From contig JAZKBU010000005.1 in NCBI GenBank assembly GCA_040388375.1, positions 281,273 to 345,272 of the forward strand: DNA of 64,000 bases. The letters are read 5' to 3'. Both the position numbers and the translations under genes were made by a program. Shown in pieces: positions 122-61,340 of the stretch. The DNA is from Bacteroidota bacterium. Its GTDB lineage: Bacteria; Bacteroidota; Bacteroidia; UKL13-3. Every line of letters starts with the position of its first letter. The first letter of the stretch is position 1. A model generated the notes under the pieces. It worked only from the letters and a program-made list of their open reading frames with translations. It did not search any database and had not been told where the DNA came from.

Positions 122-149
122 ACGGGAGCGGGCTTCCCACTTCTGTCCC

Positions 150-342
150 TTGTTGTGTCTCCCGACCAACAAGCAGTCTAGCGTTTTTGGATACTTTTTT
201 GGCAATGCAAAAAGTATCGAAACAAAAAAAAGAAAACATTGATTGCAGGCGAGGACGCCTGCAATGGCATAAGGTAACGCGGAACGAGCGAGACACTCGC
301 ACCAGCAGAGGCTAAATAGTTGTTGGTCGGGAGACACAACAA
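150..342. repeat. 23-bp perfect inverted repeat pair
   Basis: The 23 bases at 150-172 are the exact reverse complement of those at 320-342. Each arm contains GTCGGGAGAC (or its complement), which can itself fold into a small hairpin with a GGGA loop. A related copy is present at 58441-58456. Confidence 0.85.
241..311 (+). repeat. Direct repeat unit, copy 1 (about 71 bp)
   Basis: The unit begins with a GCAGGCG-AGGA-CGCCTGC hairpin and continues through GGTAACGCGGAACGAGCG and a GAGCG-AGA-CACTC hairpin. It differs from the copy at 361-432 by two substitutions and one single-base indel. Confidence 0.9.
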
Positions 343-360
343 CGGCAAAAGGGCGGAACT

Positions 361-432
361 GATTACAGGCGAGGACGCCTGCAATGGCATTAAGGTAACG
401 CGGAACGAGCGAGACACTCGCACCAGCGGAGG
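361..432 (+). repeat. Direct repeat unit, copy 2 (about 72 bp)
   Basis: Second copy of the unit at 241-311, same orientation, 120 bases downstream. A partial third copy of its hairpin arm (GCCTGCAATGGC) follows at once. The near-identity suggests recent duplication or gene conversion. Confidence 0.9.
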
Positions 433-56964: not shown

Positions 56965-56990
56965 GTAGAGACGTTGCACGCAACGTCTTC
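56965..56990. repeat. Palindromic repeat, form A, copy 1
   Basis: GTAGAGACGTTGCACGCAAC and the following bases to 56990 form a palindrome around TTGCACGCAA, with one mismatch (C for T) in the centre. It directly follows the ABC exporter stop codon. Confidence 0.9.
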
Positions 56991-57000
56991 ATAATAAATT

Positions 57001-57031
57001 AAAAGGCCGATGTTATTCATCGGCCTTTTTT
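57001..57031 (+). terminator. Rho-independent terminator of the ABC exporter
   Basis: AAAAGGCCGATG pairs with CATCGGCCTTTT around TTATT, followed by more T. It lies within the repeat-rich interval. Confidence 0.92.
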
Positions 57032-57045
57032 ATTTTGTGGGTGGT

Positions 57046-57143
57046 TGGTGAGGTAACCAACCTTTGATAGCATTTTTGCCAATGCAGGCATCCTCGCCTG
57101 CATTGTTTCGTTTGTTTAAAGACGTTGCATGCAACGTCTCTAC
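57046..57143. repeat. Composite of hairpin repeats: GGTTGGTG-type, CAGGC-type and palindrome form B
   Basis: In order: a GGTTGG...CCAACC hairpin (57046-57065, loop TGAGGTAA), a 25-bp hairpin at 57081-57105 (AATGCAGGC-TCCT-type loop-GCCTGCATT) and a palindrome at 57121-57143 ending in CTCTAC. Bases 57144-57206, up to the next start codon, hold nothing recognisable. This, with the repeat at 56965, is copy 1 of the A-to-B composite also seen at 58342-58560. Confidence 0.85.
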
Positions 57144-57206
57144 ATGCCAACCTTATAGTATTTTTAAATATTTTTTATATCATTGAAGTAAGATAATCAA
57201 TGTAAT

Positions 57207-57722
57207 ATGAAAGAATGTTTTACCCCAACCATTACTAAACTCATTGTATGCTTATGTATAATTATACCTATTACAGGTATGGCATACGGAGTGTTTACCG
57301 GCAAACTAAGCCCGGTACAGCCAACAAATAACAACTTAACTATTGCCACCGAAAAAGCATTTGCACCTGCAGATACCGGTTATGAGCAAATCATTAAAAA
57401 TATAAAAACTGTTTTTGATGGATATGTAAAGTATAAGGAGACCACCGACTCAAAAGCCAACAAAGATTTAATGCGTAAAAGTTTAGAGTCGTTGGGTGTG
57501 GTTACCAACCAAAAAGACTTAATTATTTTAATCAATGTATGGATGTATTACGACCCGACTGATTTTCCAAGCCGACAATTGGTATATGCTATTTTAGAAC
57601 GCAACAAATTGGAAAGCATAAAGGCAGTAAACAAAAGATTAGACCATAAAATAAAAGGAGAAACAGATGAAACTGTTCCTTATGTGGAGTTAAATAATTT
57701 ATTGAAAAAGCTGGAGAGTTAA
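57207..57722 (+). CDS. Small exported protein of unknown function
   Basis: Unrecognised 171-residue protein with an N-terminal hydrophobic segment (KLIVCLCIIIPITGMAYGVF, about 11-30), either a signal peptide or a membrane anchor. The rest is helical and charged, with no motif I can name. It follows the composite repeat and is followed 8 bases later by a membrane protein, so both may form a two-gene unit. Presence of the repeats on both sides suggests a locus subject to rearrangement. Confidence 0.72.
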   Translation: MKECFTPTITKLIVCLCIIIPITGMAYGVFTGKLSPVQPTNNNLTIATEKAFAPADTGYEQIIKNIKTVFDGYVKYKETTDSKANKDLMRKSLESLGVVTNQKDLIILINVWMYYDPTDFPSRQLVYAILERNKLESIKAVNKRLDHKIKGETDETVPYVELNNLLKKLES

Positions 57723-57730
57723 TACCATAC

Positions 57731-58345
57731 ATGAAGAACATAGGTAATTTTACCATACACCAAACAGGCAATGTTCTTGTTATTGATTATACCCGAAGTT
57801 TAAAAGACTGGATAGATACGATTATAGCACTGGCTATTGGTTTAGGCTGTGTTGTTGGTGTTGTTTTTATAGCTTCTATGATGTTTGAAAAGTTTGATTG
57901 GATTTTACTGTTACCCCTTGGTTCATTTGGCTTTGTTGCTTTTTTAAAATTAACCGATGGTATAGAAAAACTTTTTCAAAAAACAGGTGCTGTTATTACC
58001 ATTGATAAAGATGCGGACCTGTTAATAGCCAATTATTTTTGGGGCAAATCTCGCTCCCTGCCATTCGAAACTATTAAATGTATACAACTGAACGGACAAG
58101 TTGATAATATTAAAACGGGCAAGTATTTGCAAAGGAGGGTGTTTTGTAAAGTAGAAGTACAAACAAAAGACGATAAAATAGAAAGCCTCGTGTATATTAA
58201 CCCAACACAAATAGTAAGAATATCTGATGCGGAAATAGATGCAGATGTATATACTATAGGAAGTAAACTGGCTAAATTTATAGCTGAAAAAACGGGCATA
58301 CCATATCAATGGACAGGCTTTCATGAGCAGGATACAGCGATGTAG
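57731..58345 (+). CDS. Membrane protein with a PH-like C-terminal domain (unknown)
   Basis: A 204-residue protein. Two hydrophobic segments at about 28-50 and 55-75 (IIALAIGLGCVVGVVFIASM and WILLLPLGSFGFVAFLKL) are followed by a beta-rich region of about 120 residues (AVITIDKDADLLIANYF, RSLPFETIKCIQLNGQ), which resembles a bacterial PH-like domain. No function is assigned. The stop codon TAG at 58343-58345 lies inside the first bases of the next palindromic repeat (GTAGAGACG), so the repeat appears to end the reading frame. The C-terminus may therefore be altered relative to homologues. Confidence 0.72.
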   Translation: MKNIGNFTIHQTGNVLVIDYTRSLKDWIDTIIALAIGLGCVVGVVFIASMMFEKFDWILLLPLGSFGFVAFLKLTDGIEKLFQKTGAVITIDKDADLLIANYFWGKSRSLPFETIKCIQLNGQVDNIKTGKYLQRRVFCKVEVQTKDDKIESLVYINPTQIVRISDAEIDADVYTIGSKLAKFIAEKTGIPYQWTGFHEQDTAM

Positions 58346-58560
58346 AGACGTTGCATACAACGTCTTGATAAATAATACGCATTACGCTGCCCAAGGTTGG
58401 TGTCCTCATCAACCTTATACTTATTCTACACATTTAGCGGTTGGTCGGGAGACACATCCCGATAGCTATCGGGAGCGGACTGCAGATATATTGCATTTAG
58501 CCAATGCAGGCGTCCTCGCCTGCATTGTTTGTTTAAAGACGTTCCATGCAACGTCTCTAC
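58342..58560. repeat. Composite repeat, copy 2 (palindrome A, hairpins, palindrome B)
   Basis: The interval begins with palindrome form A (58342-58366), then a GGTTGGTG-TCCT-type hairpin (58395-58414), a GTCGGGAGAC segment (58444-58453), the perfect palindrome CCCGATAGCTATCGGG (58458-58473), an AATGCAGGCG-TCCT-CGCCTGCATT hairpin (58503-58527) and palindrome form B (58538-58560). Its ends and several internal modules match 56965-57143, but the spacers differ in sequence and length. Confidence 0.88.
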
Positions 58561-58621
58561 GTACCATACACACATTTGCATAATTCATTTATATTACAAG
58601 CCATAAAATGGTAAATAATAT

Positions 58622-60199
58622 ATGGATATATCAAATATAAAAACACCGGGTGTGTATATACAGGAAATTAACGCTTTTCCTAATTCTGTAGTGCCCGTGG
58701 CAACTGCCGTACCTGCCTTTATTGGTTATACACCAATGGCTATGTACGAGGGTAAATCATACACCAACGTAGCTCAAAAAATAACTTCGTTTGCCGAGTT
58801 CCAGGCCATTTATTGTTTGCCAGATGCACCGCCACCTGCGGCTCCTACCAAGCAATACAGTCCTGAGTATTATCTGGTAAAGCAAAAAAGCCAACCAACC
58901 ACTGGCGATTATATGTTAATTGACAATGCTTATTATTCCATATTGCCCGACCCCAATACCATTTATTATATGTACAATAGCATTCAGTTATTTTACCAGA
59001 ATGGGGGAGCCGATGCCTATATAGTTTCTGTAGGCTCTTATGGTCCACCGTCTAAAAATCCGATGCCTGCCGGGGAGCAACATATAGTAAACCCCAATGT
59101 GCAGTTAACTGATTTAATGAATGGATTGGCATTGCTGCGCAATGAGCAGGAACCCACTATGTATATTTGTCCAGATGCTACATTGCTTTCCATTGACAAC
59201 AATGGAACACTGATGCAGCAAATGTTATTGCAGTGTACCGAAATGCAAACGGCTGTTGCTGTTTTTGATATTATAGGTGGCCGCAATCCTGACCCTATTA
59301 TGTACACCAACGATATTACTACCTTTAGAAACAATACAGGTACAACAGGTTTAGATTATGGTGCGGCTTATTACCCATTTGTAGGCACTACCATTATGCA
59401 AAATTCGGATATTGACTATACCAATTTATTTGGTGGCGATACCGCGCAGCTTGCAGCTTTACTAAATCCGGCAGATAATCCTAACCTGGCTGTGGCAAGT
59501 ATTTTTGCTACTATTAATAACCCCGCTTCCACCTTAACCGTTACCCAAAACAATAATGCTTTACTGGTAGCCAGTAAAACATATGGCTTAATAATAAAGC
59601 ATGTATTAACCGATGCCAATATATTACCACCAAGCGGTGCTATGGCCGGGGTTATAACTACCATTGATAACCAGGATGGTGTTTGGCAGGCACCTGCCAA
59701 TACCTCTATTGTTGGAGCTGCCTCATTACCCATCAGGTTGTCAGAAAGCCAGCAGGGTAATTTAAACATGGATCCTGTGTCGGGTAAATCAATCAATGCC
59801 ATTCGCTTTTTTAACGGGCAGGGTATTTTAGTATGGGGCGCACGCACTTTAGATGGCAATAGTTTGGACTGGAAATACCTTCCGGTAAGGCGAACCATGA
59901 CTTTTTTAGAGCAATCGTGTAAGCTGGCAGCAAGGGCTTATGTGTTTGAGCCCAATACTGCTAATACATGGGCAAGTGTAAAAGCTATGATTAGCAGCTT
60001 CCTGACCACCATCTGGAAAGAAGGAGGTTTAATGGGCGCTTCGGCTTCTGATGCTTTTTCAGTGGAGTGCGGCTTAGGAACTACCATGACGGCAGATGAT
60101 ATATTAAATGGTATAATGATTGTTAGTATAAAAGTAGCCGTAGTGCGTCCGGCTGAGTTTATAGTAATAACCTTTCAGCAACAGATGCAGACCAGTTAA
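58622..60199 (+). CDS. Contractile tail sheath family protein (orphan)
   Basis: A 525-residue sheath protein of contractile injection systems (phage tails, eCIS, T6SS subtype iii). The N-terminus KTPGVYIQEINAFPNSVVP and FIGYTPMA are conserved across eCIS sheaths. The C-terminal sheath domain (about 395-525) has INAIRFFNGQGILVWGARTL, LPVRRTMTFLEQS, VFEPNTANTWASVKAMISSFL and VRPAEFIVITFQQ (read in parts). No tube, baseplate, spike or AAA+ gene lies upstream or downstream in the window, and the gene is bounded by repeats. It could be a relic, a translocated copy, or part of a system encoded elsewhere. Confidence 0.9.
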   Translation: MDISNIKTPGVYIQEINAFPNSVVPVATAVPAFIGYTPMAMYEGKSYTNVAQKITSFAEFQAIYCLPDAPPPAAPTKQYSPEYYLVKQKSQPTTGDYMLIDNAYYSILPDPNTIYYMYNSIQLFYQNGGADAYIVSVGSYGPPSKNPMPAGEQHIVNPNVQLTDLMNGLALLRNEQEPTMYICPDATLLSIDNNGTLMQQMLLQCTEMQTAVAVFDIIGGRNPDPIMYTNDITTFRNNTGTTGLDYGAAYYPFVGTTIMQNSDIDYTNLFGGDTAQLAALLNPADNPNLAVASIFATINNPASTLTVTQNNNALLVASKTYGLIIKHVLTDANILPPSGAMAGVITTIDNQDGVWQAPANTSIVGAASLPIRLSESQQGNLNMDPVSGKSINAIRFFNGQGILVWGARTLDGNSLDWKYLPVRRTMTFLEQSCKLAARAYVFEPNTANTWASVKAMISSFLTTIWKEGGLMGASASDAFSVECGLGTTMTADDILNGIMIVSIKVAVVRPAEFIVITFQQQMQTS

Positions 60200-60245
60200 A
60201 GAGCCATGAAACTATTTGTTCGTAAGCTTATACGGTTTTTGTCCG

Positions 60246-60305
60246 TGGTTGGTGTCCTCACCAATCACAGACAGTAACGTAGAGACGTTGCATGCAACGT
60301 CTTAC
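60246..60305. repeat. Hairpin plus palindrome form A downstream of the sheath gene
   Basis: A GGTTGGTG-TCCT-CACCAATC hairpin near 60248-60267 is followed by the palindrome GTAGAGACGTTGCATGCAAC and its remaining bases to 60305. The order hairpin-then-palindrome differs from the composites upstream. Confidence 0.85.
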
Positions 60306-60375
60306 TTTTTTTGCAAGATTAAAAAAGAATGGTATTTTGCTGAAGCAATGTTTTAACAATTCAACAATACTAATA

Positions 60376-60711
60376 ATGATGAAAAGATTGAGCTATTACT
60401 ACTGGGCGTTTATTTTGCTTTTGCAGGTAGTCATTATTGTACAAAAAATACAAAACGAAAGCATTTATATATGGAATGTGGTGGCTTTAATAAGTGCCGT
60501 TTTTTTTCTATACCACAGGCTTATCAAAAACAAAGTATATCAGAGTGCCGAAATATCCATGGCACTATTGATAGCCATTAACGGCATAACCGCAGGCTTG
60601 GCTCAAATAATAAACCTAAACAGCTTATTGGTACTGGTAACAAGCTTAGCGGTAACAGCTATATCCATTTTTATGGCCTATTTTATTTGGAAACAGGAAG
60701 GTGAAAAATAA
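60376..60711 (+). CDS. Small membrane protein of unknown function
   Basis: A protein of about 111 residues with three or four hydrophobic segments (YYYWAFILLLQVVIIVQKI, WNVVALISAVFFLYHRL, VLVTSLAVTAISIFMAYFI) and almost no soluble part. ATG 60376 (or the next codon 60379) is chosen; an in-frame ATG at 60292 lies inside the palindrome and is unlikely. The stop overlaps closely with the next gene (TAATATG). No function can be assigned. Confidence 0.65.
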   Translation: MMKRLSYYYWAFILLLQVVIIVQKIQNESIYIWNVVALISAVFFLYHRLIKNKVYQSAEISMALLIAINGITAGLAQIINLNSLLVLVTSLAVTAISIFMAYFIWKQEGEK

Positions 60712-60712
60712 T

Positions 60713-61300
60713 ATGAAATGGACTTATAGGAGATATCGGTTATGGGTTATTAATACGCCAACAGAAGCAAACCTATACTTATGGGATAAATGGAACCTGC
60801 TCATGCCCGCTATTAATAAGCTTGTTAATATAACTAAAGAGGAAGCGTTTATTCGTTCTTTCCAAAGTTATGAACAAGAGAATAGCTGGCTTGGCTTTGG
60901 TCGCATGCCATGGAACGAAGACAATAATATTAAATGGACTACAAAATATAGGAACATAGCTTCGGAAGATAAAATACTTAACTTTTTTAGTACCGAGGTT
61001 TGGGCTCCGGATTGGAATAAAGTTTCCAAAGAAAACATACCACCGGATATATTTATTAAGCTGTATAATTACTCCAATGCGCAAACAGTAAAAGAGGGTT
61101 TTGTTATAGCTATGCCTAAAGCTATGTATAAAAAAAACAAAACGCTGGTTGATGTCGAAATAACAAAATTGGTTAACCACATTCCCAATGCCAGCTTAAA
61201 TACTTTAACCAGATTGTGGCAACCTGTATGGAAATTTAGCAACCGTATAGAGAATATAAACTTTCACGAAATACAAGAAATAATTAAACAGAAAAACTAA
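60713..61300 (+). CDS. Unrecognised 195-residue protein
   Basis: Starts at ATG 60713, one base after the stop of the preceding gene, which indicates coupling. The protein is rich in Trp (WTYRRYRLWVI, LWDKWNLLM, TEVWAPDWNKV) and Asn, with no signal peptide or membrane segment. I recognise no domain. With the small membrane protein upstream it may form a two-gene unit. The palindrome repeat lies 14 bases after its stop. Confidence 0.65.
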   Translation: MKWTYRRYRLWVINTPTEANLYLWDKWNLLMPAINKLVNITKEEAFIRSFQSYEQENSWLGFGRMPWNEDNNIKWTTKYRNIASEDKILNFFSTEVWAPDWNKVSKENIPPDIFIKLYNYSNAQTVKEGFVIAMPKAMYKKNKTLVDVEITKLVNHIPNASLNTLTRLWQPVWKFSNRIENINFHEIQEIIKQKN

Positions 61301-61314
61301 CCAATTACAATAGC

Positions 61315-61340
61315 GTAGAGACGTTGCATGCAACGTCTCA
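61315..61340. repeat. Palindromic repeat, form A, last copy
   Basis: GTAGAGACGTTGCATGCAAC followed by GTCTCA. The copy lies between two small genes of unknown function. From 61341 to 61452 no gene or further repeat is seen. Confidence 0.9.

Follow-up and report, generated by a model that had tools for sequence, protein, structure and literature searches.

The dispersed purine-loop hairpins in the 64,000-nucleotide stretch of Bacteroidota DNA analyzed here (the window) are very probably REP elements of a divergent Bacteroidota clade of RAYTs (Y1/HUH), constrained in foot, stem frame and loop alike and apparently orphaned in their present host. RAYTs, the REP-associated tyrosine transposases, are Y1/HUH nucleases and represent domesticated single-strand transposases. 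The REPs themselves would be short palindromes that are non-autonomous and depend on the cognate RAYT, which copies them in single-stranded form to other places on the chromosome. In each, a family-specific lower stem would be followed by an inner frame GG..CC and a loop of four bases, and an unpaired foot would read GG(R)C on one strand and G(Y)CC on the opposite one. In related genomes, such hairpins directly flank RAYT genes of this clade, in most cases as an inverted pair around the gene, and the stem differs from RAYT to RAYT.

Hairpin families in the window

Three hairpin families, A, B and C, are represented in the window (Table 1). RGGA hairpins do lie near the sites named in the original prediction, but several of them are imperfect: one mismatch each was found in the copy at 57080 and in both copies of stem B, which had been given as a perfect GGTTGGTG/CACCAACC pairing. 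Stem C, formerly read as 3 bp (GTC/GAC), actually spans about 10 bp with one bulged A in the copies at 149-173 and 319-343, and its right arm is broken at 58440. The stems had furthermore been called unrelated. This is wrong in part: the lower stems differ by family, but stems A and B share an inner GGYG/CRCC, and an unpaired 3' foot GG(R)C, absent from the earlier description, is common to stems A, B and C.

Table 1. REP copies and relics located in the window, with strand, arms and loop where given, and structural details.
Family	Position	Strand	Arm-loop-arm	Structure and foot
A	242..268	+	ATTGCAGGCG-AGGA-CGCCTGCAAT	10-bp stem (242-265), perfect; foot GGC 266-268
A	362..388	+	ATTACAGGCG-AGGA-CGCCTGCAAT	stem 362-385, 1 mismatch; foot GGC
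C	149..173	-	CTTGTTGGTC-GGGA-GACaCAACAAG	foot GGGAC, on the + strand immediately left of 149
C	319..346	+	GTTGTTGGTC-GGGA-GACaCAACAAC	hairpin 319-343; foot GGC 344-346
B, degenerate relic	57043..57062	+	GGTTGGTGAGGTAACCAACC	
A	57077..57105	-		hairpin 57080-57105, 1 mismatch at the loop-closing pair; + strand foot GCC 57077-57079
B	58389..58416	-	AAGGTTGATG-AGGA-CACCAACCTT	hairpin 58393-58416, 1 mismatch; foot GGGC
C, truncated	58440..58459	+	GTTGGTC-GGGA-GACACATCC	broken right arm
A	58499..58527	-	AATGCAGGCG-AGGA-CGCCTGCATT	11-bp stem (58502-58527), perfect; foot GGC
B	60240..60268	-	GTGATTGGTG-AGGA-CACCAACCAC	hairpin 60245-60268, 1 mismatch; foot GGACA

Other repeats and genes were observed nearby. 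Between 56965 and 61338 there are six copies of GTAG-AGACGTTGCATGCAACGTCT, some with CTAC at the other end; they resemble the double-foot GTAG REP of TnpAREP subclass 2.4, and no cognate RAYT for them was found in the loci examined. A dispersed GAGCGAGACACTCGCACCAG (286, 407) adjoins the REPs in the region 60-430, and the dispersed repeat TCCCGATAG(C/T)TATCGGGA is present at 105 and 58457. The REP-rich stretch also contains a phage tail sheath-like gene (58622-60199; Pfam Phage_sheath_1C), which is absent from nine sister genomes and might belong to a contractile injection system or be what is left of a prophage.

Abundance and placement in the host genome

The host genome, whose named relatives are Bacteroidota, has a size of 3.97 Mb with 35% GC (assembly 98% complete), and the statistics given here are based on an 864-kb sample of it together with whole-genome pattern searches. 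With at least 8 of 10 stem pairs required, the sample contains 23 RGGA hairpins, compared with 3–8 (mean 4.9) in ten first-order Markov shuffles. This is more than expected by chance. Directly 3' of the hairpin, GG is present in 21 of the 23 cases. A whole-genome search for the 12-nt core GGNGAGGACNCC, in which the outer stem was left unconstrained, returned 32 sites, whereas the reversed pattern gave a single one, and each of the ten genomes of the genus shows an excess of this core. Among the 31 distinct cores of the host's own genome, 29 possess the GG foot. Watson-Crick pairing at the six outer stem positions amounts to 74–94%, and most of these positions are occupied by several pair types.

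Although 85% of the DNA is coding, 20 of the 23 copies are intergenic, often near gene ends. Where neighboring genes are co-directional, the transcribed strand carries TCCT rather than AGGA by 12 to 3 in the own-genome sample; this may reflect a strand bias of insertion or selection. Inverted doublets with a spacing of 26–47 bp occur in a related genome (G003). In family B, pairing fails repeatedly at the fourth outer position of the stem, where A or T faces C; the RAYT-flanking copies show this as well, and it may be a functional irregularity by analogy with the bulge of E. coli REPs. No movement of a copy was caught. Nine sister genomes lack one stem A copy at the corresponding site; however, the adjoining and downstream sequence differs there too, so that the site is not a clean empty one. 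At the tail-sheath locus the empty-site comparison was uninformative because the sister genomes lack that gene.

Cognate RAYT genes in related genomes

Stem A, in the form RTTGCAGGCG-AGGA, is found on both sides of an intact RAYT gene of 175 aa in genome G002, with the foot pointing outward. In a sister genome of the host, G003, a RAYT is split over contig ends, and stem A hairpins are located at both ends of this gene. Stem B, of the GGTTGGTG-AGGA type, flanks RAYTs in two further genomes (G018 and G059), while stem C (GTTGTTGGTC-GGGA) lies upstream of RAYT L188 in G012; on the downstream side of this gene the partner hairpin is degenerate. The family C stem at 319..346 of the window differs from this upstream stem by nothing but the bulged A. 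Since each of the three stems occurs at RAYTs of one clade, all of them belong with that clade. The suggestion of a RAYT-like transposase, one of several made in the original prediction, is supported by these cognate genes.

Searching with the G002 protein revealed that the family possesses a clade of RAYTs, one of which is encoded by the host (G000:C3:49479-49964). When the clade alignment was run against the genome collection, 80 loci were obtained across the Bacteroidota, among them Mucilaginibacter, Pontibacter, Dyadobacter, Rufibacter, Arcicella, Pedobacter and other genera; a few records are labeled Ignavibacteria or Chlorobiota. In a set of 133 genes first scanned, which includes more distant RAYTs, matching hairpins were present both up- and downstream of 83, and for the other 50 no matching pair was found. 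An RNRA hairpin with GG lies within 300 bp of 55 of the 84 intact clade genes, whereas control windows of equal size gave 3/84 and 1/84. In G003 (L135 1-300, contig C10) a stem A REP was also observed in frame within the C-terminal part of a RAYT (WNFM-IAGEDACNG-GIYKHSS). REPs in frame inside the RAYT gene have been reported for subclass 2.4 genes.

The clade has a Y1/HUH fold with HxH and Y motifs, as judged from several types of evidence. Its members match the NCBIfam model NF047646 REP_Tyr_transpos with E values of 1e-17 to 1e-22, at 63–79 bits and hence below the cutoff of 80, and they conserve the motifs NHIH, YIHNNP/YIHQNP and a C-terminal SS. A profile of the clade has a single match in the PDB, namely 4er8, the E. 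coli TnpArep (RAYT). The same entry, a RAYT bound to a REP hairpin, is the best structural match of an AlphaFold model with a mean pLDDT of 94.8.

In the host assembly (98% complete), no RAYT is flanked by stem A, B or C; therefore, the host copies appear orphaned. Its sole RAYT of the clade carries a different REP with an AAGAA loop, and because of this we read families A, B and C as probable leftovers of lost or transient RAYTs. About ten copies of that REP, TTGTTGGTG-AAGAA-CACCAACAA, are gathered within approximately 11 kb around the gene (L209; G000:C3:44001-60000), and only one further copy occurs elsewhere in the 864-kb sample. The Pfam profile PF01797 alone is of limited use as a finder of cognate RAYTs, as it missed the host clade member (20 bits at a cutoff of 23). 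Four host genes that do match PF01797 (L001-L004) were rejected as cognates: they are flanked by other palindromes and lack the present hairpins. Each of them has palindromes of its own, for example the CAACTCCGAAGGAGTTG arrays around L003.

Constraints on loop, stem and foot

Parsimony on a RAYT tree was applied to 55 RAYT/REP pairs with four-base loops, across which the loop follows the rule R-N-R-A (T-Y-N-Y on the other strand). Position 4 is A in all 55 pairs and never changed. Positions 1 and 3 changed six and three times, respectively, between A and G only, whereas position 2 changed 15 times and takes any of the four bases. No change was found either at the G-C pairs of stem positions 3 and 7 or at the foot G, and around these fixed pairs the rest of the stem drifts with pairing kept. 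The foot rule is partly built into the selection of hairpins for this tree, and the unbiased figure for the foot is obtained without a foot filter: among 154 RNRA hairpins, 125 have GG within at most 3 nt on the 3' side and only 11 the mirrored CC on the 5' side. When perfect hairpins were collected with neither a loop nor a foot filter, 69 of 72 loops were RNRA or its complement (12.5% expected).

There are exceptions. Loops of 5 nt (AAGAA, AGGGA, GAAAA) or of 12–13 nt are found with some clade members, and one locus (L244), left out of the tree because its hairpin orientation is ambiguous, has a TTTT loop in one flank, which breaks RNRA. Loops of another kind, for example AGA or GCA, belong to more distantly related RAYTs of these genomes; thus, the RNRA rule is not general to all RAYTs. 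Three RAYTs about 25–30% identical to the query (L189, L190, L194) were seen with [AG]GGA loops, unlike stems (CCACGCGA.. / ..TCGCGCGG) and a tail AGC.

These data modify the claim that the loop is conserved and recognized while the stem varies freely. The loop is indeed confined to RNRA, and its final A never varies; yet invariant G-C pairs are retained in the stem, and GG in the foot. It is the whole pattern of foot, frame and loop that is constrained while the remainder drifts, and AGGA is just one of several permitted loops. The original prediction had also named an outcome that would speak against it, namely that the copies are diverged members of a single repeat family with independent mutations. 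The hairpins do form one REP superfamily, as diverged members. Their cognate RAYTs differ, however, and changes on one stem arm are matched by changes on the other, which goes beyond independent mutation.

Alternative explanations

That the loop alone is recognized, as DNA or as RNA, and that the stems are arbitrary seems rather unlikely to us. Throughout the clade few loop sequences are allowed, and specific loop bases are essential for the RAYTs of S. maltophilia and Marinomonas (PMC8266576). However, two stem positions and the foot G equal loop position 4 in invariance, loop position 2 is free, and AAGAA or long loops occur with other RAYTs of this clade. Very unlikely, too, is a loop shared by chance or plain common descent and free of constraint: families A and B have the 12-nt core in common and could have diverged recently, but neither the excess over the shuffles nor the uneven changes along the loop on the RAYT tree, from 15 at position 2 through transitions only at positions 1 and 3 to none at position 4, would then be expected.

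Two further explanations assign the hairpins a role in RNA. CsrA binds A(N)GGA in hairpin loops, and the short AGGA and GGGA loops resemble its consensus. Nevertheless, elements bound by a CsrA-like protein are hardly conceivable here: no PF02599 match exists anywhere in the host genome, the transcript bears TCCT and not AGGA in 12 of 15 co-directional settings, most loops of the clade (ACAA, ATAA, AAAA) have no GGA, and the window is without an Rfam match. Intergenic terminators or mRNA-stabilizing hairpins kept by the host, with loops alike because of stability, would fit the intergenic position frequently near gene ends, and purine loops may favor hairpin stability. Such a role is highly improbable as a general explanation, given that scattered copies are near-identical, that the GG foot is present and that RAYT genes are flanked; moreover, no T run follows the hairpin in the copies inspected, and at the single orthologous site checked the hairpin is not conserved in nine sister genomes. 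Some copies may still have been co-opted by the host.

How the REPs might be recognized

If the hairpins are REPs of this clade, GTAG REPs offer an analogy: their foot is 5', and the strand bound here would therefore probably read 5'-G(Y)CC-stem-TYNY-stem'. On that strand the invariant base would be the first T of the loop, presumably read together with the foot and perhaps comparable to the loop T contacted by the IS608 and ISDra2 transposases. The purine loop noticed originally would then lie on the unbound strand. Known RAYTs cut single-stranded REPs, and loop bases are essential in group 3, but not in E. coli (PMC8266576). Drift of the stem could give rise to separate, RAYT-specific REP families. 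One might extend this to a GTAG-free code of the whole Bacteroidota RAYT clade, consisting of the G(Y)CC foot, a T-first TYNY loop (RNRA) and two fixed pairs, with stem drift generating mutually separate families of which some outlast their RAYT; we consider the chances of this wider proposal to be evenly balanced.

The published work that we found on DNA recognition by RAYTs covers GTAG-type REPs only. An end tag GGC/GGRC combined with a restricted four-base loop suggests how a poorly studied group of transposases recognizes DNA. For one clade with 'atypical' repeats, an explicit and testable rule of foot, frame and loop is now available, and about 55 natural RAYT/REP pairs show which base changes are permitted. 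Consequently, the replacement of GTAG and the origin of separate REP families become directly testable.

Comparison with known systems

The kind of system is already known, while the literature searched was not found to contain the rule for foot and loop; a search for the repeat sequences themselves delivered unrelated short matches only. IS200/IS605 transposases such as those of IS608 and ISDra2 have the same fold, and they read subterminal hairpins and contact a loop T (PMC8266576). In contrast to these elements, the present repeats are dispersed to sites distant from the gene, and we observed no IS ends that have an insert in common. The GTAG and CGTC super-families of REPs (Di Nocera 2013, PMC3733652) likewise comprise short palindromes with an unpaired end tag and family-variable stems, and the CGTC types have loops of 4–5 nt. 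Neither tag occurs here, however, and CGTC REPs lack a transposase whereas the present REPs have one; membership among the CGTC REPs was rejected on both grounds.

With the RAYT/REP systems of E. coli, Stenotrophomonas and Pseudomonas (REPtrons, REPINs) the hairpins share a small HUH/Y1 gene between inverted REPs, as seen in the relatives at 83 of 133 genes and directly for stems A and B, as well as dispersed intergenic copies and inverted doublets. In Stenotrophomonas, REP classes also differ in stem, have similar loops and are each tied to their own RAYT (PMC3686654). The present elements differ from these systems by the foot, in which GG(R)C / G(Y)CC takes the place of GT[AG]G, and by a loop held to RNRA/TYNY; a GT[AG]G-like word is present in the flank of 7 of 154 hairpins, at no fixed position, and for the host copies of A, B and C the cognate RAYT is not in the same genome.

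Also among the closest is TnpAREP subclass 2.6 (RAYT group 5). It is described (Quentin et al. 2018, PMC6006769) as mostly from Bacteroidetes, with 'atypical secondary structures' without GT[AG]G and with the motifs NH[LIV]H, WQ, YIH[QN]NP and C-terminal SS; the repeats of the Bacteroidetes group are recorded there as 'atypical' and in need of manual inspection, and its main text, so far as consulted, was not found to give a foot or loop rule for them. The present clade, a possible member of this subclass, agrees with it in the bias toward Bacteroidota, in flanking repeats that are free of GTAG and in most of the motifs (NH[LIV]H, YIH[QN]NP and the C-terminal SS), but it has W-E in place of WQ.
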